The notes under the pieces were generated by a model. The model was not told where the DNA came from, did not search any database, and saw only the letters and a program-made list of their open reading frames with translations. Below are positions 32,317 to 48,923 of a stretch of 64,000 bases of DNA, one piece after another. The number at the start of each line of letters is the position of its first letter. The first letter of the stretch is position 1. Source of the stretch: Sediminibacterium salmoneum NBRC 103935 (GTDB taxonomy: Bacteria > Bacteroidota > Bacteroidia > Chitinophagales > Chitinophagaceae); assembly GCF_000511175.1 (NCBI RefSeq), contig NZ_KI866530.1, positions 1,807,336 to 1,871,335 on the forward strand. The letters are read 5' to 3'. The translations under genes were made by a program, and so were the position numbers.

Positions 32317-32356
32317 ATGCAGTGGAAGGGTTGGCTTTGTGGGTTAGCCACTGCAT
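32317..32356. repeat. Inverted-repeat structure F
   Basis: ATGCAGTGG (32317-32325) and CCACTGCAT (32348-32356) are exact reverse complements around a 22-base loop that itself contains TTGGCT and AGCCA. It follows structure E by 11 bases. Confidence 0.6.
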
Positions 32357-32422
32357 AAGCCGTGCTTGTGCGTTGGCCGGGTGGGTTCAATAAATTCGTG
32401 AGGAACGAACACCGCTTTCTTA

Positions 32423-32501: not shown

Positions 32502-33929
32502 CTATATGATATGCTCCTTCAGCTTTTCTTCAAGTTCCTTTTTACGGTGATACCAAAAACCAATTTTGTAATTGCAGCCTTCTTTATTCAATCGCCTGTG
32601 GCAATACTTAATTTCAAACTCAGTAAAGTTGGCATTCTGTGATAGCAAATAGTCTGAATATTTATAAACTACTGAAACCATTTTGTGCTCCTGTGCTTTT
32701 GCAAACCTGATGAAACTTTCAAAGATTAATAGCCTTTCAAGGTCTTCGCTTATTTCAACAAGTTCAAGCCCCTCTGCTTCAGTTGGACGGGTTATTTCTC
32801 GTATTCGTTCTTCTTCGTCAAAACCTATCTGCTTTTCAATAGCAACCTTACGCTTAGCCTTGTTGATGCCTTTTAAAGACCAATCTCTGTCAATATAACA
32901 AATGCCATGCTCCAACCACAAACCTGCATTATCAAGGACCAAACCAAATTCCTTATTTGGTGATGGACGCATACAACGGCCCACCTGTTGTAAATAAAGC
33001 ACTAATGACTTTGTTGGTCTTGCCAACTGAACTGCTTCGCAATCGGGAACATCGAAACCTTCTGAAACAATATCAACGTTACTCAGCACAAGTATTTCAC
33101 CTTTCTTGAATTGTTCTAAGATTGCTTTCCTTTCCGTTTTAGGAGTAGTAGCATCAATATGGGCAGATGGTATACCAGCTCCCAAATAACGTTCTACAAT
33201 GCTTTTACTGTGTTCAATATCCACAGCAAATACGATTGTCTTTTTTCCGTTTGCAAACTTTTTATAACTCTCCACCAGGTTAGCCATAATGGAGTTGTCT
33301 AACATTACATTTTTAAGCATTTGCAAGTCGTAATCCCTCATTCTTTGCTTCACCTTTGAAACATCAGGGATGCCACAAACCAAATGCTTCATCTTGGCAA
33401 GATGCCCCTCGTTAATGAAGTAGCTGAGTTTACCTAAAGGAATGAGTATTTCAAATAAGTCATCGAAGCCCTCACCATTGATACGAACCGGAGTTGCGGT
33501 AACACCTAAGAACCTTGCATCGGGATATATTTCCCATAGTTTTTTGTAAGTATCAGCCTTTGAATGATGGCACTCGTCAATAATCACTATGTCAGCCGGA
33601 GGATAGTTTCTTCTTGATAGGGTTTGAATTGTAGCTACCTGAACTGCTTTATCAGGTTCTGCCTTGTTACCTGCTGAAATAATGCCTACAGAAACACCGA
33701 ATGACTGTAAACGTTCAGCAATCTGCTCTACCAATTCAATGCGGTGAACAACAATCAGAACAAACTTTTCTTTAAGATGGGCTTTGCGTACTATTGCAGA
33801 AAACACAGTTGTTTTGCCTGTTCCGGTAGGCATTTGGAATAAAACATTTTTCAGATTAGACCTCTTTGGATCCCATGCCTCAAATATTTTCTTTATTCCC
33901 TCTGTCTGGTATTCTCTAAGTACGACCAT
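32502..33929 (-). CDS. SF2 DEAD/DEAH-type helicase (XPB/RapA-like), last gene of the defence operon
   Basis: A 475-residue SF2 ATPase. Motifs: Q-like LREYQTEGIKKIFEAW at the start, Walker A QMPTGTGKTTVFSAI (about residue 34), VVHRIELVEQIAERL (Ia), VIIDECHHSKADTYKKLW (DECH, about 118), LGVTATPVR (III), VLSNVDIVSEGFDVPDCEAV (V) and QQVGRCMRPSPNKEFG (VI). A C-terminal ~100 residues are charged and lack a known domain. It is short for the helicases of Hachiman or DISARM. It starts 25 bases after the PD-(D/E)XK-like gene, so a helicase-nuclease pair is likely; I do not recognise the pair as a named system. Confidence 0.85.
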   Translation of the reverse strand: MVVLREYQTEGIKKIFEAWDPKRSNLKNVLFQMPTGTGKTTVFSAIVRKAHLKEKFVLIVVHRIELVEQIAERLQSFGVSVGIISAGNKAEPDKAVQVATIQTLSRRNYPPADIVIIDECHHSKADTYKKLWEIYPDARFLGVTATPVRINGEGFDDLFEILIPLGKLSYFINEGHLAKMKHLVCGIPDVSKVKQRMRDYDLQMLKNVMLDNSIMANLVESYKKFANGKKTIVFAVDIEHSKSIVERYLGAGIPSAHIDATTPKTERKAILEQFKKGEILVLSNVDIVSEGFDVPDCEAVQLARPTKSLVLYLQQVGRCMRPSPNKEFGLVLDNAGLWLEHGICYIDRDWSLKGINKAKRKVAIEKQIGFDEEERIREITRPTEAEGLELVEISEDLERLLIFESFIRFAKAQEHKMVSVVYKYSDYLLSQNANFTEFEIKYCHRRLNKEGCNYKIGFWYHRKKELEEKLKEHII

Positions 33930-33954: not shown

Positions 33955-34977
33955 TTAAGGTTGGTTGAAGAAATATTGCTTCAGCTTATCTTCTAATTCA
34001 CCTTTGATATAGTCTGCTATTCTTCTGCTGTCCTTTACTTCTTCTTCAGCAGTGCCGGGCATATTCCAAAGTCTTAAACCTGCATTTTGGTTATGGCATA
34101 TTTTCAACAATTCTGCTACTGCCGCATCCTTCTTTTGCTTTGCAAACGGGTTAATAAAAATCAGATTAAAGCAGTTGCCAAAATCCCATGAGTTCAATAG
34201 TTTTTTATTGAAGTATTCGTAGTGCTTGAAATAGAGGTTGTTTAAAATAACCACATCAACATTCTCAAACTCGGAAACAGGATGGAATGATGATGATGTA
34301 AACAAACCTTGGTCTTTGAACATATAGTAGTACCACAATTGCATGTCCTCAGCATCATTACACGAAACAGACAGGATATTCAGTTCTTTGTCGGATGCAG
34401 CAGGATTGAATTTTTTATTTGCACTTAAAAGAAAATCTTTCAGGCTGTTATCCATGTTCTTTGTTGCTACAATGGCATCCAAATTCAATTTCTCAGCAAC
34501 CGGCTTTAAGAGTTCCTGCAATTCAGCAAGGGTATCACCAAAACCATCTAAGCGGCCTACAGGCTGAATTTTAAGCGTATTGCTTGCATCAATAGCCTCC
34601 TTTGCATTAAAATCTGAACACTTAATCTCGATATTGAATGTAAACCCGTTTTCAGAAAATACCAGGTCAACATCCATCTTGTTAGCAGGATTTATTTTCT
34701 TCTCAATTGCAAGGTCTGTTTTGTATTTGTCGGCAAAGAATTTCACTATGGTAGCTTCACAAGCAAACTGAACATACTGTTTGACGTTGAATGGAAGAGC
34801 ATTTAACATCATTTTGTTTTGTAACCAGTTATTCAGTTCACTCGGAAAGTTAGCTGCATAGCAGGCATAAACTTCCTCGAAGTCATTTATGTATTGATGA
34901 CCGCCATTGTTTGCTGTTACCAGATAATTATTGGTGTCGGTAGTTTGTGAAATGTATTTCTGCAATGTTGCGTCCAT
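33955..34977 (-). CDS. Putative PD-(D/E)XK-type nuclease partner of the helicase (340 aa, unrecognised)
   Basis: I do not recognise a named family. Residues about 70-125 look like a restriction-endonuclease core: a helix with an acidic residue (CEATIVKFFADKYKTDLAIE), then MDVDLVFSENGFTFNIEIKC, giving D...E-x-K spaced as in PD-(D/E)XK enzymes. The second half (VDVVILNNLYFKHYEYFNKK, CFNLIFINPFAKQKKDAAVA) looks alpha/beta. No signal peptide or TM. It lies 57 bases after the PLD gene and 25 before the helicase, all co-directional. It is not a clear DUF1837 (HamA) relative to my eye. The nuclease call rests on one motif. Confidence 0.55.
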   Translation of the reverse strand: MDATLQKYISQTTDTNNYLVTANNGGHQYINDFEEVYACYAANFPSELNNWLQNKMMLNALPFNVKQYVQFACEATIVKFFADKYKTDLAIEKKINPANKMDVDLVFSENGFTFNIEIKCSDFNAKEAIDASNTLKIQPVGRLDGFGDTLAELQELLKPVAEKLNLDAIVATKNMDNSLKDFLLSANKKFNPAASDKELNILSVSCNDAEDMQLWYYYMFKDQGLFTSSSFHPVSEFENVDVVILNNLYFKHYEYFNKKLLNSWDFGNCFNLIFINPFAKQKKDAAVAELLKICHNQNAGLRLWNMPGTAEEEVKDSRRIADYIKGELEDKLKQYFFNQP

Positions 34978-35034: not shown

Positions 35035-36498
35035 TTACGAAAAGTTTAAAAGAGAAAGTTCAAATTGGTAATCATGGAACACCTTTTTCCAAAACTGTTC
35101 GACATTATCAAAAAACTGAGTACCTTCTTCTACTGCGTAATTTTCATTTTCATTCCCGCTATACGAAAGCCAGTTGTAGCTGCCTTTTATATAATACTCA
35201 AAATCCTTTATTAGAATTTTTCTGTGGCTACCATCACGGTTAGGGAACTTGTTTTTGAAATGAGTTGGCAAGTGAAATATAAATACACGAGAAGGGTATT
35301 TTGATTTCAACTCTTGGATTTTCTCAAATGTCTCTTTGTGCGGAGCATTTTTGAAACTTGAATCTATGCCATAGGCAATAAATAATTTGGTGTCCTTCTT
35401 TTTCAAAAAGAACTCCATCGCAGGCAAGTAATCCATTGTAGCCTTTCTAATCCATGGGCTTTCAATATAAACCGCTGTGTCAGCGGTGAAAAGTGCCTCT
35501 TTGATAAGTTCCTTATGCTCGAAAGTTGAAATATCTTGATACTTACCCGTCAACTTTTCATCGGTGATTTGGACAGCAGCGTCAATGAACAGCTTTTTGT
35601 ATTCCTCAACGCCTTCAAGTTCATTTGTGAAATCAAACAGATATTTATTTGAAGAGTATAAAGAACTCAACGATTCTGTATGAGATTTGAGCAGCTTCGA
35701 TTCACTGTTGTAAACCTTTAATTGTATTTTCTTGCCTGACTTGTCCTTAGGATAGTATATTAACACATAATATTTGACAAATAAATCCCTTCTTGCAGTA
35801 ATACTGCGTTTGTAGTTAGCTAAATCTACAATCTCCTTATCGCCAGCATTTGCCCTCGTGTAGCATTTGTTTATTTTCAACCATTGCTCCTGGATAAAAT
35901 CAAAATCTACTTTTACTGATGGTGCAAGTCTATTGGGAGTATTGGTAGTTTCAGATGGCATTTCATAGTAAATATCTTTTGTAAGACCATCAACATAGAA
36001 CTTAAAGTCCTCTTGGGTTGTAACAGGTATAAACTTCTTTTCCTCAATGAAAATGTCTCCTTTCGTTGTAACTCTGTATTTTTCCTCATCTGAAATGGCT
36101 ATGATGCCGTTTTCCAATAAGGTGTATAATTCATCCAGTATAAAGTCGTTTTCCGATACACCAAGAAACTGAGCCAATGCTCCTTTTGAATCAACACCAG
36201 TGTTAATCAGCTCAATAAGCAAAATGTGAACTTCCTGAAGTATATCGCTCGGCTTGCCTGAGGAAATGACTTCAATAGTTGTTTCAACAATTGGATAGCC
36301 TATTTCAAGAATATCATTTAATGAATATTCCGAACCGAGATCATCCTTGTGATTATCGAATAGCACAGCCGTTTTAGACAAATTCTTTGATTTGCTGTGT
36401 GCTATTTTCGGGTTCTTAAAGTGCTTTTGCCCTTTGTTGTATTGCACCTTATGCTGCTTTTGATTATTTCCTTTCTGATTATTCATAGAATATTTCAT
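35035..36498 (-). CDS. mkoB: PLD-type nuclease, Mokosh type I MkoB-like
   Basis: A 487-residue protein. The last ~160 residues are a phospholipase-D nuclease domain with one HKD motif: SHRKILIKDFEYYIKGSYNW gives H-x-K-x4-D followed by G-S-x-N (about residue 433), preceded by TAVYIESPWIRKATMDYL. The N-terminus is basic (NNQKGNNQKQHKVQYNKGQK), perhaps nucleic-acid binding, and the middle has a winged-helix-like stretch (LLENGIIAISDEEKYRVTTK). It overlaps the kinase-helicase by 20 bases, the pairing that defines Mokosh type I (MkoA kinase-RNA helicase plus MkoB PLD). One HKD per chain implies a dimer. Confidence 0.75.
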   Translation of the reverse strand: MKYSMNNQKGNNQKQHKVQYNKGQKHFKNPKIAHSKSKNLSKTAVLFDNHKDDLGSEYSLNDILEIGYPIVETTIEVISSGKPSDILQEVHILLIELINTGVDSKGALAQFLGVSENDFILDELYTLLENGIIAISDEEKYRVTTKGDIFIEEKKFIPVTTQEDFKFYVDGLTKDIYYEMPSETTNTPNRLAPSVKVDFDFIQEQWLKINKCYTRANAGDKEIVDLANYKRSITARRDLFVKYYVLIYYPKDKSGKKIQLKVYNSESKLLKSHTESLSSLYSSNKYLFDFTNELEGVEEYKKLFIDAAVQITDEKLTGKYQDISTFEHKELIKEALFTADTAVYIESPWIRKATMDYLPAMEFFLKKKDTKLFIAYGIDSSFKNAPHKETFEKIQELKSKYPSRVFIFHLPTHFKNKFPNRDGSHRKILIKDFEYYIKGSYNWLSYSGNENENYAVEEGTQFFDNVEQFWKKVFHDYQFELSLLNFS

Positions 36499-39400
36499 TT
36501 AGGCTATTATAGATAAATCCAGCTTTGTGCAATTGAGATACAAACTCCTTCAATAACAAAGGCTTTTGAGGATTATTTGAGATCCAGGAAAAACTTGGAT
36601 TAACGTTTAAAATGTAATCTGCATCACCCACAACAATAAGAAGGCGTTTTACCCTTGTTAAAGCCACATTTATTCTGTTAGGCATTTCGAGGAAACCCAA
36701 CCCGGTGTTATCCTTCGCTTTTGCACTACGGACAATGTCATAAATGATAATATCCTTTTCTGAACCCTGAAAACTATCAACAGTAGCAATTGTAAGATTC
36801 TTGTTCAATTGCAAATTTTTGAAATAAGCATTCTCGATTTCATTACTTAAATACTCAGCTTGCTTACCATAGCCAGTAATTACACCAACTTCATACGGCT
36901 TATCATTTTCAGATTCAGTGAAGATTTCTGGGATATTATCAATTTTTGTAAGTATTTCAGTTATTGCTTTCGCACTTACAGGATTGTATGATGACCTACT
37001 GACAGGATCAATTCTGTGGAAACGGTCAGGATATTTGTTTATGTCGCACATAAACATTGAAGTGGTTGCCTTTAATTTTATGTTGTGAGGCTTCCCACTC
37101 TTTTCTGTAGATTTTAATTTGTTGTGGTATACTAAACTTGAAATTATATCGCCAATCTGTTTAGGCATTCTAAATTGCAGATCAAGCATTTCTTTATACT
37201 CTTCCGGTGAACCATCATACATAATTTGGAATAAACTTGGCTGGTCATAGTAGATTTTGTCAAAGTCTACCATTTCACCCTCATTATTCAATTTCGCCTG
37301 TACCTGTTTTTTCACTGCTTCTGTTGCTGTTACTAAAGGAGGCAACTGCTCATGGTCACCAACAAGTACAAGATTATGTGCCATGTTTATAGGAACCAAC
37401 GTTTCAGCAGGTGTAGCCTTTGCAGCTTCATCCATGATAACATAATCAAACTCAAACTTAAAATCCTTGTACATACCGGCAGCTATGTGATTAGCAGTTG
37501 CACCAACTATATTGATGCTGGATATGTATTTCGATTTTAGTTCGTCCTTATTTTCAATATTCGATAGTATTGAAATCCACTTACGCTTTAGAAGCTCAAG
37601 TTTGTTAAGAAACACATGCTCATCTCCAATATACTTAGAAAGCTCAGCCTCAAAATTTTGCTTGTTATCAATATGCTCAACCAAACTCTCAAAACCCTTT
37701 GCAAAATGACCTGTTAGAACTTGCTTTAAGTACTTCTTAGTAATATCCCAAGATTGTTTCTTATTTATTTCCTGTAAAATGAGGTTCAAAAATGGGGATA
37801 TGTTCTTCTCCTGAGATAGTGCCTGTTTTTTTTGTGCTGCGAAATTCTTCTCACAATTACCCTTAGTTTTTCGAGCCCATAGATTCAGTTTTTTATCAAA
37901 AGAGTGGCTGTCAATAACGGCATCTTCAATGTTTCTACCCAACCTAATAAAATTTACACCTGGAACATCAACCATTCTGGAAAGCACATTGTCAACCGCA
38001 AGGTTGGTTTGCGATGTTATGAGAATCTTAGACTGCTTATCCTTAGCAAGTATCTGCTTTATGAGTTCTGTAATTACTGTTGTTTTACCAGTACCCGGAG
38101 GGCCTTGAATAAGAGTTATTGGTGGACGATATAGAGATTTTAAAATTGCAAACTTCTGAGCATCCTGAAACTGAACTGGTTTACCATTCTTCTCAGTTGA
38201 AATGACATTAAGTTCTGCATCAAGCTCCCCAACCTCATCTGCTAATTGCTTTAGATTTTCAGGTTGAAACAAATACCTCCTGAGTTGGGAGTTTGTAATA
38301 TTATCGTTCTCGTAATTCTTAATAGCATTAAGCTGACGCTTGTATTGTATTTCAAGAAGTGAAGTATCCTCAATTAAAAAACCTTTGACTGCTACTTCCT
38401 CTTTTTTAGAAATCGGAAAATCCTTGACAAATAATTTATTGGTTCTACTGTCGTAACGGGTACTAAAACCAATGCTTTGTTTTGATTTTGTACCTTGTTC
38501 ATCTTCACTACTGCAAAGTGATATTTCTGTACCCTTTCTGAAAGATGCCTGAGAACGTTTAAGGAAATTATTGACCTTTTCTATCGTAACCTTTTCGTCA
38601 AACACGACTTTAAAAGCTGCCTCATTATTTGAATTTACCTCAAATTCAGAGTACCTAACCTTAAAGGCATCATTTCTAAGATAATTGATCTCTTCCTGCA
38701 AAAGCGTTTTATAGGTTTGAAGTATTTCTCTTGGCTGCCTTTGCAATGCAGAACGAGTAGTATCTCGTTTATCAATGAATAGTTTCTCCAAAAGATTGTA
38801 AACATCATAATGGTTTTGAAAGTCCGCATCTGAAGGCTCTTTAGACACAAAGTTTACCTCAGACAATTGAAACCCATTTGCCAAAATCCATGCATGATTT
38901 TTTTGTTCGTTTGGCTCAAGGTTATCTATTTTCTTGAATCCTTTGATTTCAAGGCAATTGCCTCTATTAGATAAAAAGCAATGGTTAACGTAAAAATTAG
39001 TTGATGCTATTTTTGCAATTACATTCTTATGAACCTGATGTCGTAATTCATTCACTGCGATAAAAACACCTTCGCTGTTAATTTCTCGAATAAATTCAAC
39101 GGGATTGATGCCCGGTTCAAAATGTAATGCAAATGGTTTATCTGGTGTGTGGTTGATTACTTCAAACAATGAATTGATTGCATCTCTCAACTCTGTGTAT
39201 CTGAAATATCTTTTATTGTGGTCTGAATCAAACGACTTCCTGAAAACTTCCTGAAACTGCTTTAGACCATTTTCAGAAAGATAGGATTTATAAAGGTTGA
39301 CCACTTTTTGCAATCTGCTTTCATTATTCTCGTCTTCGTAGAATAACTGATGGCCAAGTAAAGAATACAAAACACAGAGGGATAATGAATAAAAATCAGT

Positions 39401-39985
39401 ACGACTTTGAAGTTTTGATTCTTCCTTCCTTATGTACTCAGGTGCTGAAAAGCGTGTAGTGTATTCATTTTCTGTTGGCCTTTTTGAAATAGTGTGCTCC
39501 AGTAATGATATTCCAAAATCAATTATTACTGGTTTTCTATCTTCCGTAATCAGGATATTTCTTGGGTGGATATCCTTATGAAATATATTCTTTGAAGCTG
39601 CAAGGTCTAACGCTTCCGAACAGTTATACAAAACTTGTAGAATGTATTTTAGGTATTGGGGAGATACTTCATTTTCAGCAGCAACAAATTGTTCCAGTGT
39701 TTTACCATTATCAATCTTTTCCAATATCATAAAATAACAACCGGCAGTAGCCTCATCGCCTGAATCAATTACTTTATTGATAAACTCACTATTGATTTTC
39801 TTTAGATGACGGGATACAGAACTAAACTGCCGAGCTGCTGAACTGCTGGCATCTAAATTCTTTGGCACTTTTGCAAAATAGATTTTTGCATCAGGACCTT
39901 GCACATCGAATAAATATGCATTGTTGGTTTCTGTTATCTCGCTAACCCTAAGGTAAGCTCCTATTTTTTCCAAGTTCATTTCCAT
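36479..39985 (-). CDS. mkoA: Ser/Thr-kinase plus SF1 (Upf1-like) helicase fusion, Mokosh type I MkoA-like
   Basis: A 1168-residue fusion. Residues about 10-270 are a protein kinase: AKVPKN with the ATP Lys, catalytic loop FHKDIHPRNILITED (HKD variant of HRD, Asp and Asn kept) and IIDFGIS (DFG). A long middle region has no known motif. From about 610 comes a COG1112-type SF1 helicase: Walker A LIQGPPGTGKTTVITELI (about 628), VIMDEAAKATPAETL (motif II), LVGDHEQLPPLV (III), and TVDSFQGSEKDIIIYDIVRS with VALTRVKRLLIVVGD (V-VI). This architecture with a PLD partner fits Mokosh type I anti-phage systems. It begins 36 bases after the Argonaute stop, so co-transcription is likely. Confidence 0.85.
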   Translation of the reverse strand: MEMNLEKIGAYLRVSEITETNNAYLFDVQGPDAKIYFAKVPKNLDASSSAARQFSSVSRHLKKINSEFINKVIDSGDEATAGCYFMILEKIDNGKTLEQFVAAENEVSPQYLKYILQVLYNCSEALDLAASKNIFHKDIHPRNILITEDRKPVIIDFGISLLEHTISKRPTENEYTTRFSAPEYIRKEESKLQSRTDFYSLSLCVLYSLLGHQLFYEDENNESRLQKVVNLYKSYLSENGLKQFQEVFRKSFDSDHNKRYFRYTELRDAINSLFEVINHTPDKPFALHFEPGINPVEFIREINSEGVFIAVNELRHQVHKNVIAKIASTNFYVNHCFLSNRGNCLEIKGFKKIDNLEPNEQKNHAWILANGFQLSEVNFVSKEPSDADFQNHYDVYNLLEKLFIDKRDTTRSALQRQPREILQTYKTLLQEEINYLRNDAFKVRYSEFEVNSNNEAAFKVVFDEKVTIEKVNNFLKRSQASFRKGTEISLCSSEDEQGTKSKQSIGFSTRYDSRTNKLFVKDFPISKKEEVAVKGFLIEDTSLLEIQYKRQLNAIKNYENDNITNSQLRRYLFQPENLKQLADEVGELDAELNVISTEKNGKPVQFQDAQKFAILKSLYRPPITLIQGPPGTGKTTVITELIKQILAKDKQSKILITSQTNLAVDNVLSRMVDVPGVNFIRLGRNIEDAVIDSHSFDKKLNLWARKTKGNCEKNFAAQKKQALSQEKNISPFLNLILQEINKKQSWDITKKYLKQVLTGHFAKGFESLVEHIDNKQNFEAELSKYIGDEHVFLNKLELLKRKWISILSNIENKDELKSKYISSINIVGATANHIAAGMYKDFKFEFDYVIMDEAAKATPAETLVPINMAHNLVLVGDHEQLPPLVTATEAVKKQVQAKLNNEGEMVDFDKIYYDQPSLFQIMYDGSPEEYKEMLDLQFRMPKQIGDIISSLVYHNKLKSTEKSGKPHNIKLKATTSMFMCDINKYPDRFHRIDPVSRSSYNPVSAKAITEILTKIDNIPEIFTESENDKPYEVGVITGYGKQAEYLSNEIENAYFKNLQLNKNLTIATVDSFQGSEKDIIIYDIVRSAKAKDNTGLGFLEMPNRINVALTRVKRLLIVVGDADYILNVNPSFSWISNNPQKPLLLKEFVSQLHKAGFIYNSLNEIFYE

Positions 39986-40021: not shown

Positions 40022-42100
40022 TTATAAAAACCAAAGACTCTCCTTACCAAAGTCAGGCAGTTTGTCGTGTTGGAAATAGGGGTAAATCTCGGCCACCATT
40101 TCAGGGTACTTGATGGTAACCGGCAAACTCTGCTGGTTGGTGCTTTTCCAATACATGCGGCTGAACTGATAAACCTGGTCTATTAGCTGCTCTACCAAGT
40201 TCATATCATCTAACATGCCTTCCACTGTTGAGGATAAAGCAATCTTCACCGGAAAGTGATATTCCTTTTGTGCAGGCTTTGAGGTTGCATCGTATCGGGT
40301 ATTGTTGAATAGCAGGTATTCGGATTTGCCCACTTTTACAATTGTTCCGCTGTAAGGCATTAAGTTCTCCGCATCGCTCACATCAAAGCCTAACAACTCT
40401 TTGCTTTCTGTTTTATTGATTGTAACTACAATAACAGGAATGTTCAAGCCTAATGTGTGTAAAGTCCGCAGGATGGGTTCTAATTCCTTTTTCCCTATGT
40501 CTTTATAGAAGTGAATAACCAACCTTGAAGCTGTATAATTGACGGCTATAAACTTTGCTACCGCTTCCCTGATGGAACCTGCAAGGCTAATGGTATCATC
40601 TCCTTTAAAGCAATCAAAGCCTTTGAAAATTCCCTCGTTATTGAAACAGAAAGCCGAACCTACAAACCTTGATTTTCGGGTAACAGAATAGAATGCACCC
40701 ACACCCACAATAAGCTCATTGTTGGTTGGTCTGTTCAGCCTCCAGGGTACACCACCCAATTTTGCCAGCATGGCAATTTCTATGTGTGGAAGGAATGTAT
40801 TGAAGAAAGAATTAGGCTTACCGTTTTTGTACAGGTGTTCGCTTTTGATTACTTGTGAAAGCACACCTTCATACAAAAGGATTTCTTTGATCTTATAGTA
40901 GATGTTCTTTTTGCCATCGTCCTTCTCTAATTTAGGCACTGGGTTTACAAAGAGTGCCATGTATTGCGTATCAGGTTGCCAATCTGCGTTCTTTACAGCA
41001 TTGCGAACACTGGCTACTGCATTTTCAACGGTATCAAATTCTACATTCTTTGAAATGTCTAACTCAAAAGGAACTTTGATGTAGTCCTGCATTTTGGGGA
41101 AAGGGAAACGGTCGTCTTTCCAACCACTATGTAAATACCTGTACAGTTCAGTTACCGCAGTAGGTTTGTCTGCCTTTTGATAAATGAAAAAGAATTTGAA
41201 GTTGCTGGGCTTCTGCGGCAATTGGTAAGGACCTTTTGACTTAAAATCTTTCTTGGGTTCTTTCCCTGTTCTACCTCCGGCATACAACAAATCGTTGGAG
41301 CTTGAATTGATAACACGGTGCTGCTCTGCCTTTGGCCGATAAAAGCCTTCCTCGGTTATAGGAATGATTTTGCGAAATGCCGGTGTGTTGAGATACTTGC
41401 TGTAAAAATCTTGTAGAATATCCAAGTATTTTGGATAGCGGTTTTTTAAGTCCGGTACATCAAAGGCAATTTCTAAATGCGGTTTGAGTTCGTTGCTTAA
41501 AATAGGGTAACAATTCTGTGGTTGATTGATTACCTCCTGTGGTCTGAACTTCCATTTATAGATAACACCATTGCAAACTATCCAATTGTACAGGTTGGTA
41601 TTGAAGTTGTAAATCTCGGAAACCGGCTTTGCAAATACTTTAGTTGTACCATCGTAAGAAAGTACCAACTCGGGTGTATCTGTTACCCTGCCATATTGAA
41701 CTTTGAGTGTAAACTGGTTATACACTTTGTATTTGGAGGTACTCTTTTCAGGACTGTGAAACCATACTTCTGTTTCACTGGTGAAGTCCTGATGCATGAT
41801 GTCTGCAATTCCTTCAAAGTGCTTTCGTATCAGGTAGCGGTAGTAATGATTGGCAAAACGGGTGCTAACCGATAAATCAATGTCCAAAAGGATTGCTTCT
41901 TCTCTGGGTGGCTGAAAATCGGTGTATAGCTTTTCTAATTCCAGCAATTCCAATGCAGAAAACTTATCATCAAGAAGCCCTTGCAAATCACCCTTAAACA
42001 CCGGATAAAAGCCAGGCTGCTTCTGCCTGTAGAATGCAAAAGTTTGATTACCTGCCGGAGGATTGAAAGGAATGATATTTAAGAGTAAATCTTGCTGCAT
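40022..42100 (-). CDS. Prokaryotic Argonaute (MID-PIWI) with a degenerate catalytic tetrad
   Basis: A 692-residue protein whose C-terminal half is MID-PIWI. MID keeps the 5'-guide-end pocket pattern: YYKIKEILLYEGVLSQVIKS (Tyr, Lys, Gln; about 402-421) and IEIAMLAKLGGVPWRL (Lys; about 438-453). PIWI follows: NELIVGVGAFYSV, where the first Asp is replaced (normally GIDVS); RLVIHFYKDIGKKELEPI, where the second (HRDG) is replaced; and SLPVTIKYPEMVAEI, with Glu or Pro at the fourth site. I find no good glutamate-finger residue. So guide binding is likely kept and slicing lost, as in long-B pAgos. The N-terminal 270 residues fit N/L1/L2 with a reduced PAZ. It starts on the base after RhuM's stop. 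Confidence 0.82.
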   Translation of the reverse strand: MQQDLLLNIIPFNPPAGNQTFAFYRQKQPGFYPVFKGDLQGLLDDKFSALELLELEKLYTDFQPPREEAILLDIDLSVSTRFANHYYRYLIRKHFEGIADIMHQDFTSETEVWFHSPEKSTSKYKVYNQFTLKVQYGRVTDTPELVLSYDGTTKVFAKPVSEIYNFNTNLYNWIVCNGVIYKWKFRPQEVINQPQNCYPILSNELKPHLEIAFDVPDLKNRYPKYLDILQDFYSKYLNTPAFRKIIPITEEGFYRPKAEQHRVINSSSNDLLYAGGRTGKEPKKDFKSKGPYQLPQKPSNFKFFFIYQKADKPTAVTELYRYLHSGWKDDRFPFPKMQDYIKVPFELDISKNVEFDTVENAVASVRNAVKNADWQPDTQYMALFVNPVPKLEKDDGKKNIYYKIKEILLYEGVLSQVIKSEHLYKNGKPNSFFNTFLPHIEIAMLAKLGGVPWRLNRPTNNELIVGVGAFYSVTRKSRFVGSAFCFNNEGIFKGFDCFKGDDTISLAGSIREAVAKFIAVNYTASRLVIHFYKDIGKKELEPILRTLHTLGLNIPVIVVTINKTESKELLGFDVSDAENLMPYSGTIVKVGKSEYLLFNNTRYDATSKPAQKEYHFPVKIALSSTVEGMLDDMNLVEQLIDQVYQFSRMYWKSTNQQSLPVTIKYPEMVAEIYPYFQHDKLPDFGKESLWFL

Positions 42101-43129
42101 TTATTTCTTTTTCTTTTTTGGTTTATCGGTTATCTTTTTTACTTCTTTTTCAAAATCACTTTCAAAATTTCTATCCTGAATTATTCTGAATTTTTCATAT
42201 TCTTTCTCTGCCAATTTCATGGCTACTTCATGGCTCACTTTACCTGCATCTTTTAAAATCTGGTATTCATTGAATTGAAGGAATGCATCCAAACGGGTAA
42301 CCCAATCTGCCATTTTCATCGGGATCTGTCTTTCGGCTTGCAGTTCAGCAAAATCGAGGTACATTGTAACGATACGTTCCAGTTCTTTGATTTCCTTTTC
42401 CTGCAGGTAATTTTTGGCTGTTCCAATATCTGTTTTCAGGATTTTACCTTTGGGGGCATTCTTCCAGGTGGTTAAGCCCATATTGGGCTGAGAAGCATCG
42501 GCTCGGTCTGCAATCAGTTCTGCTGCTGTTTTGCCAGTAATGGCCCAATGCAACTTGTTCTGAACCGTTTTAAAGAATTTTTGGGTTATTTCTGCATCCT
42601 TGTTATAGTCGATACTACACTGTTCGTAGATGTCGGTTATTTTGAGGTAGAAACGCCTTTCACTTGCCCGAATCTCCCGGATGCGTTCCAAAAGTTCGTC
42701 AAAGTAGTCCTTGCCAAAGCGTTTTCCTTGTTTAAGCCTTTCATCGTCCAATACAAAACCCTTGATAATGAACTCTCTAAGGGTTTTAGTAGCCCAAATG
42801 CGGAACTGAGTGGCTTGATGGCTGTTTACCCTATAGCCAACGGCTATTATGGCATCCAGATTGTAAAACTCCACATTCCTCTTTACCATCCGGGTGCCTT
42901 CCTGCTGAACTGTTTCCAAAATGGAAATAGTTGCCTTTTCGTCCAGTTCGCCCGTTTCGTAAATATTACTGAGGTGTTTGTTGATAGCAGGAACTTCCAC
43001 ACCAAACAATTCCGCCATCCGCTTTTGAGTGAGCCAAAAGGTTTCGTCATTAAAAATCACCTCAATTTTCACATCACCTGTGGGGGTGTTGTAAAATATG
43101 ATGTCGCTATGTTGTGGTGTATCACTCAT
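42101..43129 (-). CDS. RhuM-family protein (KilA-N/Fic-like virulence-associated protein)
   Basis: About 342 residues from the Met of MSDTPQHSDIIFYNTPTGDV; an ATG 13 codons earlier (43168) would overlap HsdR by 14 bases. The family marks are clear: IEVIFNDETFWLTQKRMAEL, FGVEVPAINKHLSNIYETGE, VEFYNLDAIIAVGYRVNSHQ, ATQFRIWATKTLREFIIKGF and IYEQCSIDYN. RhuM proteins combine an HTH-like N-terminus with a conserved Bro/KilA-like core; biochemical function unknown. They are frequent neighbours of type I R-M genes, which fits here. A Lys-rich tail (ITDKPKKKKK) ends the protein. Confidence 0.85.
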   Translation of the reverse strand: MSDTPQHSDIIFYNTPTGDVKIEVIFNDETFWLTQKRMAELFGVEVPAINKHLSNIYETGELDEKATISILETVQQEGTRMVKRNVEFYNLDAIIAVGYRVNSHQATQFRIWATKTLREFIIKGFVLDDERLKQGKRFGKDYFDELLERIREIRASERRFYLKITDIYEQCSIDYNKDAEITQKFFKTVQNKLHWAITGKTAAELIADRADASQPNMGLTTWKNAPKGKILKTDIGTAKNYLQEKEIKELERIVTMYLDFAELQAERQIPMKMADWVTRLDAFLQFNEYQILKDAGKVSHEVAMKLAEKEYEKFRIIQDRNFESDFEKEVKKITDKPKKKKK

Positions 43130-43154
43130 TTTCAATTTATTATTTTTTAAACGC

Positions 43155-46100
43155 TTACTTATTGGCATTGAACTTCATAAAATCTCTCTGCATTATCTGG
43201 AACATGGTTCCGGCAAAGAAATCCCTGAACTCCTTGTTATCATTATACTCCTTAAACACTTCAAAATTGGTTTCTATGTGGTCTATTAGCTTTCGCTTTA
43301 GCACATCTTCAAATGTAATCCTGGCATTTTGGGTGTCTGAGTGCTGGAAAGCATTAACAAACTCACTATCATTAGCTACATCTTGCATTAAATCTTCTGT
43401 CATTTTCTTCACCTTATCTTCATTGGTAAAGGCAGTACCAAATCTGTCGTTAAATGCTTTTACGATGTTTGACAAATACTCCATTTCAGGCTCAGCAACT
43501 CCACCTCTCATCTCAGTGGGGATAGGTTTTAATTCATCACCCTGCTCAAGTGCGATATTGGTGGTGGCCTCTAATTGGTATCGAAGGTTCTCCATGTCTA
43601 TGTTATCCAAAATACCTTGTGCTAAATCTTCCTCCCTCTGACGGCCTAACTTATTCTGTAAATGATTTAAGAAGAGGTATAGCCTTTCCAGATATGGATT
43701 GATAAAAGGAACTATTTGAGCAAGGAAAACATACAGACGTACATAGGTTTTGCATTTGGCACGGAAATCTTCTTGCTGTTCTTCGTTCAGGTGGCTTCTG
43801 AAAACTTCGGCAGCAGCATCCAAAATGCTGTGTAACTGATCAACCGGAACATTGGTAATTAGGCGTTGTGAAAACTCCTGCACCTGCTCGGGTGTGTAAA
43901 CCTGAAAAGCATCTAATGCGGATTGCAGGTCGAATAGTTTATTTGGGTCTGTTGCCTCACCCAAAATCGTTGTTTCGTAGAATGGGTCGAAAGACTTTTT
44001 GATGTCTTCTGCCTTGTTTGCAAAGTCTAATACGAATGTGTCTGTTTTACCAGCCGTTGTTCTGTTCAGCCTTGAAAGGGTTTGAACAGCATTTACACCG
44101 CCCAATTTTTTATCAACATACATAGTATGTAAAAGTGGCTGGTCGAACCCTGTTTGGTATTTGTTGGCTACAATCAGAAAGCGATACTCTGACTTCTTAA
44201 ACTCATCTGGTATTGCTGAACTTGAAAAGCCATTCAATGAGGCTTCGGTTTGCCCGTCAATTTCACCTGAAAAGGCAACAATGGCTTTGAAAGGATTTCC
44301 AGTGTCAGCAAGGTATCTGTCAAATGCTTTTTTATACTTAACTGCATTTTTACGGCTGCTGGTAACCAGCATCGCTTTTGCCAAACCATTTATTTTTTTA
44401 CGCTTAATCACCGAATCCATGAAGTGTTCAATCATGATGGCAGTTTTCTTCTCAATAGCCAGGTCATGACTTTCCACATAGATGCGTAGTTTCTTTTGTG
44501 CCTTTACCTTATCGAACAGTGGATCATCTTCAATGCGTTTGTACAACCCATAAAAACTTTGGTAGGTAGTATAATTTTCCAGCACATCACGAATGAAGTT
44601 TTCTTCAATGGCTTGCTTCATTGAGTATAAATGAAAAGCCCTGAATTTTTCTTTGCCGTTATCGTTAAACCTTTCACCAAACAATTCCAGTGTTTTGTTC
44701 TTAGGAGTAGCGGTAAAGGCGAAGTAGCTTGCATTGGTCAGCATCTTCCTACCTTTTACAATATCTACCACCAAATCTTCGGAAGTAAGTTCATCATACT
44801 GGTCTTTATCCACAAAAATGTATTCATCCCCATCCACCTGCACTTTTTCAAAATCTTTGGCAAGGGTTTCATTGAGCTTACCGGCAGTATTACCGCTTTG
44901 GCTACTATGTGCTTCATCAATGATGATAGCAAACTTGTTGCCCGGCAACTCTCCAATTTCATTAACGATGTAGGGAAACTTCTGAATGGTTGTAATAATA
45001 ATCTTCTTACCTTCTTCCAAAGCAGTTTTTAGCTGCTTACTACCTTCAGTAATAGCTTCTACTACCCCTTTTACCTGCTCAAATTGTTTGATGTTATTCC
45101 GTATCTGTGCATCTAGTACTTTACGGTCGGTGACTACAATGACCGTATCAAATACAGTGTTGGTATTTGAGTTATCAAATAAACCTACTAACTGGTGAGC
45201 CAGCCAGCTGATTGAGTTACTCTTACCAGAACCTGCGGAATGTTGAATAAGGTATCTGCGGCCTGCACCGTTTAGTTTTGCATTTTGCAACAGACTGTTT
45301 ACTGCAAATAATTGGTGATAACGAGGGAATATGAGTTTCTTGACTTTCTCCTTTTTGATTTTACCATCAGGTAATATCTTCTCTACTTCCTCTTCAAACA
45401 ACTGCACATAATTCTGAATGATATTGGTAAGGCTGTCTTTGGTCAATATTTCCTTCCACAGGTAGTCAGTTTTAATGCCCGATGAATTGGGGGGATTTCC
45501 TGCTCCATTATTGTGTCCTTTATTGAAGGGAAGAAAATATGTACTGCCATTCTTTAAGTGAGTGGTCATCCAAACCTGCTCTGTATCTACGGCAAAGTGC
45601 ACCATGCATCTTCCGAGGCGAAACAGTTCTTCTTTGCTATCTCTGCTTGTTTTGTATTGTTTGATAGCATCTTTTACATTCTGTTTGGTAAGCTCATTTT
45701 TTAATTCAAAAGTGATGATGGGTAAGCCATTGATGAAAACAACCATATCGAGGCTATTTTCATTTTGTGTGCTGTAATGCACCTGTCGGGTTACAGAGAA
45801 TATATTCTTGTTGTAGAGTTCAGTGTCTTGCTGATTGAGGTTCGAAACGGGTTTATCATAAAAGAATTTCAGTTTTACATTATTGTCAGTAATTCCTTTA
45901 CGCAAAACTTCAATAATGCCCAACAGCTTGATCTGACTGTTGAGGCGGTACAATATTTTACTACGGTAATTACCGCCATGAATGGTCTGCAATTTAAGTA
46001 CTGCCTTTTCCTGTGTTGCTTCTAAAAAACTGAAAAGCAATTCTTCATCTACACACTCAACACGATTGTATTGGGTGTTTTGGCGAAGCTGATATGAGTT

Positions 46101-46172
46101 ACCGGCAATCGTATCGCAGAGATACGCTGCAATAAGTGCTTCTAATCCTTTTTCTGATGTATCTGTTTTCAT
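43155..46172 (-). CDS. hsdR: Type I restriction enzyme R subunit
   Basis: A 1005-residue motor-nuclease subunit. The N-terminal PD-(D/E)XK core is SLDMVVFINGLPIITFELKN (D...E-x-K, about residues 143-163). The SF2 translocase has Walker A QHSAGSGKSNSISWLAH (about 319), VIVVTDRKVLDAQI (Ia), FAIIIDEAHSSQSGN (DEAH, about 419), YFAFTATPKNKTLELFG (III) and VNAVQTLSRLNRTTAG (VI). The C-terminal helical part (ITNVPVDQLHSILDAAAEVF) contacts the methylase. With HsdM and HsdS it cuts unmodified DNA after translocation. It lies 3 bases after the PHP-ATPase gene. Intact length. Confidence 0.95.
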   Translation of the reverse strand: MKTDTSEKGLEALIAAYLCDTIAGNSYQLRQNTQYNRVECVDEELLFSFLEATQEKAVLKLQTIHGGNYRSKILYRLNSQIKLLGIIEVLRKGITDNNVKLKFFYDKPVSNLNQQDTELYNKNIFSVTRQVHYSTQNENSLDMVVFINGLPIITFELKNELTKQNVKDAIKQYKTSRDSKEELFRLGRCMVHFAVDTEQVWMTTHLKNGSTYFLPFNKGHNNGAGNPPNSSGIKTDYLWKEILTKDSLTNIIQNYVQLFEEEVEKILPDGKIKKEKVKKLIFPRYHQLFAVNSLLQNAKLNGAGRRYLIQHSAGSGKSNSISWLAHQLVGLFDNSNTNTVFDTVIVVTDRKVLDAQIRNNIKQFEQVKGVVEAITEGSKQLKTALEEGKKIIITTIQKFPYIVNEIGELPGNKFAIIIDEAHSSQSGNTAGKLNETLAKDFEKVQVDGDEYIFVDKDQYDELTSEDLVVDIVKGRKMLTNASYFAFTATPKNKTLELFGERFNDNGKEKFRAFHLYSMKQAIEENFIRDVLENYTTYQSFYGLYKRIEDDPLFDKVKAQKKLRIYVESHDLAIEKKTAIMIEHFMDSVIKRKKINGLAKAMLVTSSRKNAVKYKKAFDRYLADTGNPFKAIVAFSGEIDGQTEASLNGFSSSAIPDEFKKSEYRFLIVANKYQTGFDQPLLHTMYVDKKLGGVNAVQTLSRLNRTTAGKTDTFVLDFANKAEDIKKSFDPFYETTILGEATDPNKLFDLQSALDAFQVYTPEQVQEFSQRLITNVPVDQLHSILDAAAEVFRSHLNEEQQEDFRAKCKTYVRLYVFLAQIVPFINPYLERLYLFLNHLQNKLGRQREEDLAQGILDNIDMENLRYQLEATTNIALEQGDELKPIPTEMRGGVAEPEMEYLSNIVKAFNDRFGTAFTNEDKVKKMTEDLMQDVANDSEFVNAFQHSDTQNARITFEDVLKRKLIDHIETNFEVFKEYNDNKEFRDFFAGTMFQIMQRDFMKFNANK

Positions 46173-46175
46173 TAC

Positions 46176-48923
46176 TTAAAAGTCATATTTTGTTTTACGC
46201 ATCTCAAAGGCAATAACACCGCCTTCCATAATGTCCTTTACTTGCAATTTGATTTCATCCTTATCAATTGAACCACTGCCAATAATTTCCCCTGCGGACT
46301 TATCAGAATTATGGTCAAATGTTAGGATTAATTCTGCATCACCATTCACTGCAATATTTGCATTATGACTACTGAAAATGAGCTGTCTCTTGTGCTTGGC
46401 CGAAACAATATTCTCAGTTATCTGATGAATAACTTTATTATCAAGATCATCTTCAGGTTGGTCAATTATTAAAGGACCAAATTCCTGATTCAACAATATT
46501 GTGAGGATTGAACCAGCTTGTTGACCATAAGAGGCATCTTCAAACGGTATTTTATTTGAAGGGTCTTTACAGTAAAGAAGTTTTAAATCATAAGTGGGAA
46601 GTTCCAATGCAAAGTCAATTATGGCTGACGTATTCAGGCTTTCATTAATTCTTTCAAAATCAGTTTCAAGAAGTGAGGCATTTTGCAAGCCATACTCTGA
46701 AATTATGTTTTCGATTTTAAGCTTTTCAGTTTGAGCCTTGTATATCGAGAACCAAAACTTCAACAGTTCCTTATATGTATTTTCACCCTTTAAGAGTGTC
46801 TGGAAAAACGATTGTGTTCTTGCGGGCTGGCCTTTACTTCCTGTAACTTTAGCTAAGAAACCTTTGACAATATGTTCTATATTATCTAACGGTGTTAACT
46901 CAATTTCAAGAGAACCTTCGCTCTTACCGCATATCTCAGCTACTGCACTATTAATTAAAGTGTGTAGACTTATATTTAGTTGATGCCTCTGGTAAAACAG
47001 CTTCTGCAAATTCCTTCTAACACCCTTTTCAGATTCCAAAGTTTCAAGTATCCTGTTCCTATCCTCAATCAAAACAGCCAAACGCTTTCTGAGTTCTTCA
47101 AGCTCTTTTATTATCTGCTCAAACTTTGTCTGTCTGCCTTTTGCTTCAACATACTCAGCATCATGTAAACCATGCAAATCAGTTAATACCTTCTTATCAG
47201 CAACTAAAACTGAAGAACTTGCCTTGTTTCGTGCATCATCTAATGCGGCTTTTATATTTTTAACTATCTCATCATGGCTGGCAGCATACTTTTTTATCTC
47301 TTCGGTATTCTTAACATTTTCAGAATCAAATTGTAAACCGTTGAAATTTCCGTTTGTCAGTATATTACCTATCTGATTAAATAATGCTGCAATCTGAGCT
47401 TCAGAAGATTTTATTATCAATTTTTCGTTTGCAACAAGACTATTGTTTTTGATTATAGTCTGGTCGCCTGAGGGAACTTCAGATAATTGCTCATTCAAGG
47501 ATTTAATTTGTTCCTCAATTGATTCTATTTGTGTCTTTAAATCTTCTGATGATTTTAGATTTGAAAGATAGGTTTCATAAGAAGCGGCTACTTCCTTAAT
47601 CCTGTTGCCATTTTCATTGATCTGTCTTTTGATTGATTCAACACCACTATTTACTGCATTTTCAATGATCCTGGTAAGCTGTGCCGTTTTATCTTTCTCA
47701 TGCTTACTAAGTTCCTTTTGTGCAAATGAATCTGCCCGTATAATTGAAACAATATTTTGGCTATTGGTTGGCTGCCAATCGTCATTGCCAATTTTTATTT
47801 CGTAAGAATTAATTGACCGCCTGATGATATGGGTGGTACCAGTTTTAATAATTGTAACCTCAACAGTACCCGTGCCAAGTGTATTACTAATAAACGTTTC
47901 AAGGTCAGTTTTCTTCTCTTCATTACTGTCTTTACCCAAAGCCCAAGAAATATATTGGAGTAAGGAAGATTTTCCTGTTCCTCTACCTCCAATGCATACA
48001 TTAAACTGAGGGTTAAATTTAATTTCTAAGTCTTTCAAAAAGCTGCTGCCCAATATTCTCACCTCGCTAATTCTTGTAGATGGCAACTTTGGTTCATCTT
48101 GTAAAATTCTGGACTTTTTTGCCAGGCAGGCTTGCCGTAACCCTTCAGCAGTAGGTGTGGACCATTTGACCCAAGTAGCAGAAATGCCTAAATGCTCAAA
48201 TGTATCCGTTCTGTTGTCCGATGTTTGAAAAAAGCCGATTGATCTATTACCATAAGCCGAAACCCTGCCCTCAATTACATTATTCCAACCCGTATTATTT
48301 TTATGCGATTCATACAATCCTCTATCTAAATAACCGCCCACAAATAAACCTTTAGCATACTCATTGTGAAATCCATTTCTTATAATAGTACTTGTTCCGC
48401 CATCTTTAATGTTTGGGAAAATAATAAATCTTCCTTTCAATTCCTTTACACCATTAAGAGCATCATAAACATCATTGATGCTCTTAAACGCAAGCCTGTT
48501 GGTTGGGCCTGTCTTTGCTTCTGATTTACTTGTATAATCTGAAATACCAAGTGCTGTATAGATTTTTATTCTCGTCTCATCATCTATTACTAAATCAGCG
48601 TCAAAAATTAAAAGAGCCTGACAGGGAACATCAAGCGTCAATTCCATTCCCGGGAAGACAACTATACGTTCATGCTCTGATATTGGATGGCCATGTATGT
48701 CTTTCTCATTATTGCTCGCATCATTGATGTAATTGTAAAAACACAAATCGTGGTGATCTGTAATTGCTACTGCATCAATTCTTTTATCACGGCAAGCCTT
48801 AATAAACCGCTCTGAATAAGCAATTCTATCGGCATCAGAAACATAATCCTGGCCAGAGAACTGAAGGTCTCTCGGGGTGTGAACCTGAAAGTCACATTTA
48901 AAATATCTTGCTCCTTTGTCCAT
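46176..48923 (-). CDS. PHP phosphoesterase plus SMC-like ATPase (TrlF family, Ppl-type defence protein)
   Basis: A 915-residue fusion. Residues about 8-110 are a PHP metal-dependent phosphoesterase (CDFQVHTPRDLQFSG, VAITDHHDLCFYNYI, VVFPGMELTL). From about 295 a SMC/ABC-type ATPase begins: FNVCIGGRGTGKSSLLQYIS (Walker A), a long coiled coil (about 430-650, rich in E/K/Q), signature-like DASYGQQAGSILTILL, Walker B FGPLIIDQPEDDLDNKVI and QLIFSSHNANIAVNGDAEL. This matches TrlF-type AAA-like ATPases and the single-protein Ppl defence design, names given from memory. It is fused tightly between hsdS (0-base gap) and hsdR. Confidence 0.85.
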   Translation of the reverse strand: MDKGARYFKCDFQVHTPRDLQFSGQDYVSDADRIAYSERFIKACRDKRIDAVAITDHHDLCFYNYINDASNNEKDIHGHPISEHERIVVFPGMELTLDVPCQALLIFDADLVIDDETRIKIYTALGISDYTSKSEAKTGPTNRLAFKSINDVYDALNGVKELKGRFIIFPNIKDGGTSTIIRNGFHNEYAKGLFVGGYLDRGLYESHKNNTGWNNVIEGRVSAYGNRSIGFFQTSDNRTDTFEHLGISATWVKWSTPTAEGLRQACLAKKSRILQDEPKLPSTRISEVRILGSSFLKDLEIKFNPQFNVCIGGRGTGKSSLLQYISWALGKDSNEEKKTDLETFISNTLGTGTVEVTIIKTGTTHIIRRSINSYEIKIGNDDWQPTNSQNIVSIIRADSFAQKELSKHEKDKTAQLTRIIENAVNSGVESIKRQINENGNRIKEVAASYETYLSNLKSSEDLKTQIESIEEQIKSLNEQLSEVPSGDQTIIKNNSLVANEKLIIKSSEAQIAALFNQIGNILTNGNFNGLQFDSENVKNTEEIKKYAASHDEIVKNIKAALDDARNKASSSVLVADKKVLTDLHGLHDAEYVEAKGRQTKFEQIIKELEELRKRLAVLIEDRNRILETLESEKGVRRNLQKLFYQRHQLNISLHTLINSAVAEICGKSEGSLEIELTPLDNIEHIVKGFLAKVTGSKGQPARTQSFFQTLLKGENTYKELLKFWFSIYKAQTEKLKIENIISEYGLQNASLLETDFERINESLNTSAIIDFALELPTYDLKLLYCKDPSNKIPFEDASYGQQAGSILTILLNQEFGPLIIDQPEDDLDNKVIHQITENIVSAKHKRQLIFSSHNANIAVNGDAELILTFDHNSDKSAGEIIGSGSIDKDEIKLQVKDIMEGGVIAFEMRKTKYDF

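Follow-up and report, generated by a model that had tools for sequence, protein, structure and literature searches.

The 64,000-nt stretch of Sediminibacterium salmoneum NBRC 103935 analyzed here (RefSeq contig NZ_KI866530.1, positions 1,807,336 to 1,871,335; hereafter, the window) encodes a prokaryotic Argonaute protein (pAgo), which an earlier note on this DNA had described as a catalytically dead Argonaute wired into a type I restriction-modification (R-M) operon. We found that this pAgo gene belongs to the backbone of an integrative element inserted at mnmE in Bacteroidota. Exchangeable cargo regions flank it on both sides: slot 1, which precedes the pAgo gene and is codirectional with it, usually holds an R-M system of any type, and slot 2, downstream, holds other cargo. 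The protein has lost its catalytic residues and is under strong purifying selection. The layout in the window is as follows, with the supporting models and their E values in parentheses.

28762-60018, minus strand: whole integrative element, about 31.3 kb long and inserted at the 3' end of mnmE, with putative limits at two att-like 18-mers
60001-61422, minus strand: host mnmE/trmE, the insertion site (Pfam TrmE_N, MnmE_helical)
60001-60018, minus strand: left att-like copy, the last codons of mnmE, TTCTGTATCGGAAAGTAA
59433-59903, minus strand: HTH_17 protein with a putative excisionase-like role (Pfam)
58330-59436, minus strand: tyrosine integrase (Pfam Phage_integrase)
57260-58327, minus strand: DUF6617 protein (Pfam)
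54569-56818, minus strand: primase/helicase-like protein with BT4734-like_N and DUF3987 domains, element backbone (Pfam)
54095-54406, minus strand: HTH_31 regulator, left edge of slot 1 (Pfam; its cluster is present in 32 of the 81 loci introduced below)
52307-54091, minus strand: HsdM, slot 1 cargo (PADLOC MTase_I, 6.7e-235; Pfam)
50986-52305, minus strand: PtuA-like ATPase, slot 1 cargo (PADLOC PtuA, 1.7e-115)
50234-50986, minus strand: PtuB-like HNH protein, slot 1 cargo (PADLOC PtuB, 1.4e-45)
48924-50228, minus strand: HsdS, slot 1 cargo (PADLOC Specificity_I, 8.8e-81)
46176-48923, minus strand: TrlF-family ATPase, slot 1 cargo (NCBIfam TrlF_fam_ATP, 1.9e-142)
43155-46172, minus strand: HsdR, slot 1 cargo (PADLOC REase_I, 3.3e-41; HSDR_N)
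42101-43168, minus strand: RhuM-family protein, slot 1 cargo (Pfam Virulence_RhuM, 1.9e-117)
40022-42100, minus strand: pAgo, apparently of the long-B type, 692 aa, ATG at 42100, MID domain intact and PIWI catalytic sites lost
36479-39985, minus strand: MkoA-like kinase-helicase, slot 2 cargo (PADLOC MkoA, 2.1e-147; Pkinase and AAA_11/12)
35035-36498, minus strand: phospholipase D (PLD)-type, MkoB-like protein, slot 2 cargo (PADLOC MkoB, 1.6e-28)
33955-34977, minus strand: 340-aa protein, slot 2 cargo, with no significant family match
32502-33929, minus strand: RadD-like helicase, slot 2 cargo, the last gene before the right backbone block (NCBIfam RadD, 1e-43, below cutoff)
28759-32505, no strand assigned: right backbone block, with a DUF6943 gene (30644-31069), a 249-aa open reading frame (ORF; 29380-30129), and a 122-aa ORF (32022-32390)
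28762-28779, minus strand: right att-like copy, TTTTGCATCGGGAAGTAA, differing from the left copy at 3 of 18 bases

The element at mnmE

The identification as an integrative element is based on the integrase, the att-like duplication, and the existence of both occupied and near-empty sites. A locus set was assembled from the window and 80 relatives (the best 80 of 320), 81 loci altogether. The pattern of the att-like 18-mer occurs 20 times in 19 of these, always on the strand of the pAgo gene, 11 times at the mnmE end and 9 times at the far end; it is also found once each in the related, Ago-less loci L172 and L175. A 13-mer search for an exact duplicate of the mnmE end found none in the window, and a 16-nt repeat near both ends was inspected and not taken up as an att site. 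In 11 of the 13 loci with DNA past the integrase, mnmE lies upstream of it, the exceptions being L103 and L107; four further loci end at the integrase and stand outside this count.

Genome G381, from the same genus, has no Ago match and no strong primase match, and in it mnmE lies about 1.4 kb from a relative of the window gene at 27656-28630, the two being 31 kb apart in the window. The genes between these flanks in G381 code for a cNMP-binding-domain protein and a DoxX protein. Genome G807 (the source of locus L060) has the same flanks around a 30-kb element whose integrase is 87% identical to that of the window and which carries a type III R-M system, a pAgo 84% identical to the window pAgo, and an efflux system of the resistance-nodulation-division (RND) type. 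The right backbone block is nearly whole in L052, a metagenome-assembled genome (MAG) of Cyclobacteriaceae whose homology to the window starts at 28759, and partial in L054 and L059. Within this block, 25-nt exact direct repeats flank the DUF6943 gene (30475-30499/31205-31229 and 30528-30552/31288-31312). A phage origin was rejected, since a search of 50,697 phage records returned no match and viral contigs yielded one relative (L131); the plasmid search returned five remote pAgos only.

A pAgo without catalytic residues under purifying selection

As the earlier note stated, the pAgo ORF begins on the first base past the RhuM stop codon, on the minus strand. Profile hidden Markov model (HMM) searches identify the protein as a pAgo: the Pfam Piwi model matches residues 396-672 (E value, 1.8e-14), and the PADLOC pAgo model PDLC02385 spans the whole 692-aa protein (4.3e-273), which is the single Piwi match in the genome of the window. 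The best pAgo matches in profile searches, AfAgo (1.1e-27), EcAgo (2.3e-26), and RsAgo (1e-17), suggest that this full-length protein belongs to the long-B type. Its AlphaFold2 model (predicted local distance difference test score, 81.8) displays the full-length fold of long-B pAgos, in which N, L1, L2, MID, and PIWI are usually accompanied by a short PAZ*. VIA-align retrieved RsAgo as the best match (Z scores of 29.9-31.1 over 614-624 residues), with the top alignment reaching a Z score of 31.1 over 618 residues and a model range of 3-692, and Foldseek ranked the PIWI protein Siwi first, followed by RsAgo chains.

Residue conservation was assessed in 77 aligned sequences of at least 600 aa, comprising the window protein and 76 relatives from L052-L130. 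The MID guide pocket, Y401/K405/Q416/K447, is invariant in all 77, constituting a YK-type 5'-phosphate pocket. Site 1 of the PIWI domain is G468 in all 77 sequences, and site 3 (Y532) is Tyr in 75 and Phe in 2, making both sites nonacidic throughout; site 4 (E667) is Glu in 70, Ala in 3, Ser in 2, and a gap in 2. At site 1, GVG of the pAgo aligns opposite GID of MIWI, which is a slicer. Sites 3 and 4 are the presumed catalytic positions by alignment with AfAgo. The motifs GVGAF, HFYK, and KYPEM thus stand where the earlier note had placed them and are fixed features of the clade, as is the MID pocket that it had described as kept. Ratios of nonsynonymous to synonymous substitution rates against close relatives lie between 0.027 and 0.058 (six pairs; a seventh, with L060, is saturated), indicating that the dead protein is under selection.

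Linkage of pAgo to the element primase

The pAgo gene travels with the primase of the element. In an order-level sample of 396 genomes, 24 match the pAgo: 17 have full-length clade members, four have broken or partial copies, two have remote homologs, and G084 has a protein 33% identical to the window pAgo with an adjoining SIR2 gene. In all 17 genomes with a full-length clade member, a primase gene (E value of ≤1e-60) precedes the pAgo gene on the same contig and strand, at a distance of approximately 0.4-16 kb. Primase matches at 1e-60 are found in 32 genomes of this sample overall; where the match exceeds 560 bits, the pAgo is present in 15 of 17. In a phylum-level sample of 395 genomes, 22 match the pAgo profile at 1e-10, and six of the nine matches above 600 bits have a linked primase; of the others, G523 has a weaker primase match that is not linked to its pAgo, and a threshold of 1e-40 yielded none in G693 or G644 (the pAgo contig of G644 is 3.9 kb long). 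The primase link thus characterizes the main clade. Among the loci with an unseen slot edge, 27 (all but one) trace to 26 genomes, many of them fragmented MAGs, of which 18 have a primase at 1e-60. A subclade of pAgos represented by L226, L227, and L228, whose retrieved DNA shows neither a primase nor an R-M match, is preceded by a 431- to 460-aa protein, which has no Pfam match in L226.

R-M systems in the upstream slot

In the window, the genes named by the earlier note are present as it described them, namely, hsdM, hsdS, hsdR, and the RhuM gene upstream and the MkoA- and MkoB-like genes downstream, and the codirectional HsdM, HsdS, and HsdR genes constitute a type I R-M system. The hsdM and hsdS genes enclose a PtuA/PtuB-like (Septu-like) pair at 50234-52305. 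For the comparison across loci, ORFs were called and clustered and the slots were typed with HMMs built from the clusters and anchored by Pfam and PADLOC matches of representatives. Any one component sufficed for assignment to an R-M class, as with the methyltransferase in L055 and L124, the SNF2-type helicase in L091, and the HsdM-like protein in L120.

The slot is fully visible, from the element core to the pAgo gene, in 53 of the 81 loci and partly unseen in 28. R-M occupies 38 of these 53 and, thereby, 38 of the 44 filled slots; by class, the 53 comprise type I in 21, type III in 13, IIG/DISARM-like in 4, Gabija in 1, other cargo in 5, and none in 9. Over all 81 loci, unseen parts included, the counts are 33 for type I, 20 for type III, 6 for IIG-like, 1 for Gabija, 12 for other or unseen, and 9 for nothing. 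Besides R-M, the slot may hold Gabija, Abi_2, and Fic proteins. The upstream neighbor of the pAgo gene is codirectional with it in 73 of 74 loci, with a median gap of 16 nt.

As a control, we considered 14 related elements lacking an Ago (L162-L175), with short sequences for L166, L169, L171, and L173. In three of the 14, an R-M system comes after the primase and is codirectional with it (the one in L162 being a weak match); a fourth has R-M on the opposite strand, and one has Gabija. The difference between 38/53 and 3/14 has a Fisher p of 0.0013, or 0.0048 when the fourth element is counted, with relatedness ignored in both. Hence, the part of the earlier note that linked the pAgo to R-M holds as a recurrent association. 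The tie to the type I system of the window, or to HsdR, finds no support, with a type I component in 33 of the 81 loci and HsdR in 25, given the 28 partly unseen slots.

RhuM was rejected as a constant partner: its cluster occurs in 9 of the 81 loci and directly precedes the pAgo gene in 7 of 77. In 4 of the 10 members of another cluster (no. 17), those of L070, L091, L106, and L109, a protein of about 500 aa upstream of the pAgo gene combines a cytidine-deaminase domain, marked by an HAE motif, with a RecG-C-type HATPase domain (Pfam was run on L109 only); it is the nearest neighbor of the pAgo gene in L091 and L106. The other six members do not have the motif.

Exchange of R-M beside a near-constant pAgo

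pAgos that are 96-98% identical adjoin type I, type III, or DISARM-like systems. When the window was compared by blastn with L053-L061, homology ended within 3 nt of the pAgo stop codon in 9 of 9 comparisons. At the start of the gene, seven of the nine ended no more than 5 nt away, whereas homology fell 15 nt short in L055 and 88 nt short in L061. L052 has the RhuM and pAgo genes in common with the window, DISARM-like genes upstream of them, and a downstream region that differs until the right backbone block. We rejected a pAgo-driven cassette exchange, as homology limits at ORF ends fit ordinary recombination with selection for intact ORFs. A stretch of about 60 nt before the gene that precedes the pAgo gene is conserved even where a DUF1016 protein replaces RhuM (window, 43067-43135; L054, 8801-8869; L055, 8405-8467; L053, from 8869).

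Mapped onto the pAgo tree (79 rows, a quick tree with long-branch warnings; 72 rows labeled with six cargo classes), cargo class required 33 changes against a mean of 35.5 after shuffling, and 34 of 200 shuffles were as low. Thus, the kind of R-M is distributed almost randomly over the pAgo tree. The tree, distance, and Mantel tests exclude L051, which nearly duplicates the window. Among locus pairs with a pAgo distance below 0.35, the median distance was 0.16 for the primase (41 pairs), 0.77 for hsdR (18 pairs), 0.80 for hsdM (18 pairs), and 0.11 and 0.72 for the type III R and M subunits (5 pairs each); close pAgos therefore retain the primase and not hsdR. Mantel correlations with pAgo distances, all with p of <0.02, were 0.64 for the primase (n = 37), 0.57 for the integrase (n = 14), 0.34 for hsdR (n = 23), 0.49 for type III R, 0.37 for type III M, and 0.19 for hsdM.

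The downstream region and the search for an effector

The MkoA-like and MkoB-like ORFs downstream of the pAgo gene overlap by 20 nt and constitute a Mokosh type I pair. The earlier note had offered Mokosh or the end helicase/nuclease pair as the effector partner and asked whether this pAgo always sits between hsdR/rhuM and mkoA. Across the 81 loci the slot contents vary, and a kinase-helicase is found downstream in three of them (the window, its near copy L051, and L067), besides a weak helicase match of 28 bits in L053; Mokosh was therefore rejected as a general partner. R-M-model matches downstream of the pAgo gene are likewise limited to three of the 81 loci, the window, L051, and L072, and are all RadD-like helicases.

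No recurrent effector gene was found downstream in the 81 loci, whose downstream ORFs are annotated in part. In 38 of 75 loci the first downstream gene is outside every shared cluster, and the most frequent cluster at this position, of the FUR family, accounts for 10 of 75. The RND (AcrB-type) cluster (no. 6) occurs at some point downstream of the pAgo gene in 22 of the 81 loci, and the HlyD-type cluster (no. 12) is present in 15; these efflux genes lie mostly downstream and are often accompanied by a FUR-family gene. Overlaps of 13 nt between the pAgo gene and many downstream ORFs are probably an artifact of TTG starts chosen by the ORF caller at the conserved C terminus.

No SIR2 gene adjoins the pAgo in the clade; the 81 loci contain one weak SIR2-like match, in L075, where five genes separate it from the pAgo gene. 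In contrast, a SIR2-type gene lies directly downstream of the pAgo in seven distant relatives (L045, L049, L050 [by phmmer], L229, L233, L236, and a Hymenobacter monticola plasmid), which are separated from the clade by one branch with a support of 45 in a quick, midpoint-rooted tree with long branches. A DNA methyltransferase lies upstream and SIR2 directly downstream of the distant pAgo in both L229 (G742) and L180 (the Hymenobacter monticola plasmid, NZ_CP094537).

Relationship to known systems

Like RsAgo, AfAgo, and EcAgo, its closest counterparts in fold and profile searches, the window pAgo has lost the PIWI catalytic residues and has a YK-type MID domain, the type that long-B pAgos have almost without exception according to a 2018 survey (Ryazansky 2018, PMC6299218). 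The reference long-B pAgos differ in their mobile-element setting from the element at mnmE. According to the available parts of a later study (Song 2023, PMC10620215), characterized inactive long-B pAgos act with an effector partner; a predicted nuclease gene follows that of RsAgo, and the nuclease bAgaN goes with EcAgo, whereas no such gene was found to recur in the clade described here. The counterparts of BPAS, described there as a long-B pAgo with SIR2, would be the SIR2-linked outgroups rather than the clade itself. Active pAgos associated with PLD proteins are a different case (PMC11442185, available in part). The downstream pair in the window matches the models of Mokosh type I (MkoA and MkoB), which rarely adjoins a pAgo of this clade.

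Several of the neighbors reported here had been noted at the level of orthogroups. The available text of Ryazansky 2018 lists HsdS, type III restriction proteins, lambda-type HTH proteins, and RND transporters near pAgos or long-B pAgos, places RND transporters in 14% of long-B operons with a role called unknown, and states that no defined operon compositions could be revealed; in our reading, several of these neighbors are parts of the mnmE element. Orthogroups such as og_54 stem from that survey, and Song 2023, in the portion available, links a long-B subclade to og_54, a VirE N-terminal-domain protein that, matched by its description, is probably the BT4734 primase of the element. The accessible portions of the two papers give no account of mnmE, of an integrative element, of slots for cargo, or of the exchange of R-M systems. 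DUF3987 domains have been predicted to be helicases in the replication of mobile elements (PMC5862659, in the part available). Insertion at the 3' end of trmE is also seen in SGI1-type islands of Gammaproteobacteria, a different phylum (PMC8409611, likewise in part). Among titles and abstract openings, a scope that covered few subscription papers and left preprints outside, we found no published account of the element or of the swapping.

Interpretation

The account that we favor, with confidence about evenly divided for and against it, is that the pAgo is a nonslicing, guided DNA binder that backs up whatever R-M system the element carries, as a constant second layer. On the basis of the intact YK-type MID pocket and the RsAgo-like fold, it would load short 5'-phosphorylated guides; RsAgo structures contain a guide RNA and a target DNA. 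The loaded protein would bind complementary invader DNA without cutting it and would thereby hamper plasmids, phages, or rival elements that get past the current R-M system, with any removal of the DNA falling to host or cargo nucleases and not to a dedicated partner. The R-M system itself would have been replaced repeatedly, probably via recombination between the conserved primase/HTH block and the pAgo gene.

Several observations weigh against this account. The guide type, the target type, and the defense effect are putative. The pAgo is without R-M in 9 of the 53 visible loci, so R-M is not required, and R-M is a very common defense system in general; the control set of elements without an Ago has few members, some of them short, and its kinship to the pAgo loci is more remote, 28 slots are seen in part, and taking the best 80 of 320 relatives overrepresents close kin. 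Four of the 24 matching genomes in the order-level sample (G002, G018, G231, and G349) have broken or fragmentary copies only, the strong-primase elements of G072 and G376 (L162 and L163) manage without a pAgo, and for the deeper members L226 and L227 the retrieved DNA matches neither the primase nor R-M. The G381 site is imperfect as an empty site because of its two extra genes. Type III systems alone are mildly clustered on the pAgo tree (14 changes against 17.0 after shuffling, with 14 of 500 as low), and type III R distances follow both the pAgo (r = 0.49) and the primase (r = 0.65, n = 9), on account of which the swapping is clearest for type I.

A possible but doubtful extension is that the dead pAgo is a universal companion of restriction that works with any R-M system carried; it would take guides from restriction-broken DNA, mark such DNA, or hold DNA for restriction. 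If this were true, the element and its pAgo would stay the same in an immune device of two layers, with a replaceable restriction module as the other layer. The order of R-M, pAgo, and, in some cases, SIR2 may then predate the clade, given L229 and the Hymenobacter plasmid.

We regard as rather unlikely the proposal that the pAgo serves the element, in replication, segregation, or the exclusion of rivals at mnmE, together with the primase and integrase. The linkage to the primase in all 17 genomes, the closer tracking of pAgo distances with primase and integrase than with hsdR (albeit uncorrected for host phylogeny), and the nine loci with the pAgo directly behind the primase or HTH gene without R-M speak in its favor; however, 38 of the 53 visible slots contain R-M, and two elements with strong primases do without the pAgo. 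Nor do we give much credence to the pAgo being an independent, hitchhiking defense gene that adjoins R-M because defense genes gather in mobile elements. The near-random distribution of cargo class on the pAgo tree, the lack of a fixed effector among the downstream genes annotated, and the sharing of the slot with Gabija, Abi_2, and Fic proteins are consistent with it, whereas the fixed position and primase linkage of the pAgo gene, the concentration of R-M in slot 1 (38 of the 44 filled slots, against three loci with RadD-like helicases downstream), and its rarity in the Ago-less elements (3 of 14) are not.

It is unlikely that the pAgo has an effector of its own, encoded at another place in the genome or element, that replaced SIR2 and acts by abortive infection like BPAN, BPAS, or BPAM: the seven SIR2-linked pAgos across a weakly supported branch and the use of effectors by the long-B systems in the available part of PMC10620215 argue for it, but the scattered identity of the first downstream gene, within the partial annotation noted above, argues against it. 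Finally, a specific coupling of the pAgo to the type I R-M system and Mokosh of the window, with guides from HsdR or Mokosh products as the earlier note suggested, fits the window gene order and the abutting RhuM and pAgo ORFs but is highly improbable, as pAgos 96-98% identical have other neighbors on both sides (L052, L053, L054, and L055), and it is contradicted as a general rule by the rarity of the kinase-helicase. With the kind of R-M near random, the slot empty in nine visible loci, and neither type I nor Mokosh a constant neighbor, such guides cannot be the general mechanism of the clade. Measured against what the earlier note named as refuting it, the outcome is mixed: Mokosh is not a constant neighbor, the association with R-M is real but not specific to one system, and no private effector was found.

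These results give one clade of apparently long-B pAgos a home, namely, an element at mnmE with an R-M slot before the pAgo gene and cargo, often with RND efflux, after it, and such an element with two cargo regions would account for the scattered neighbors of these pAgos. A near-constant pAgo beside many natural R-M partners provides a clean test system.

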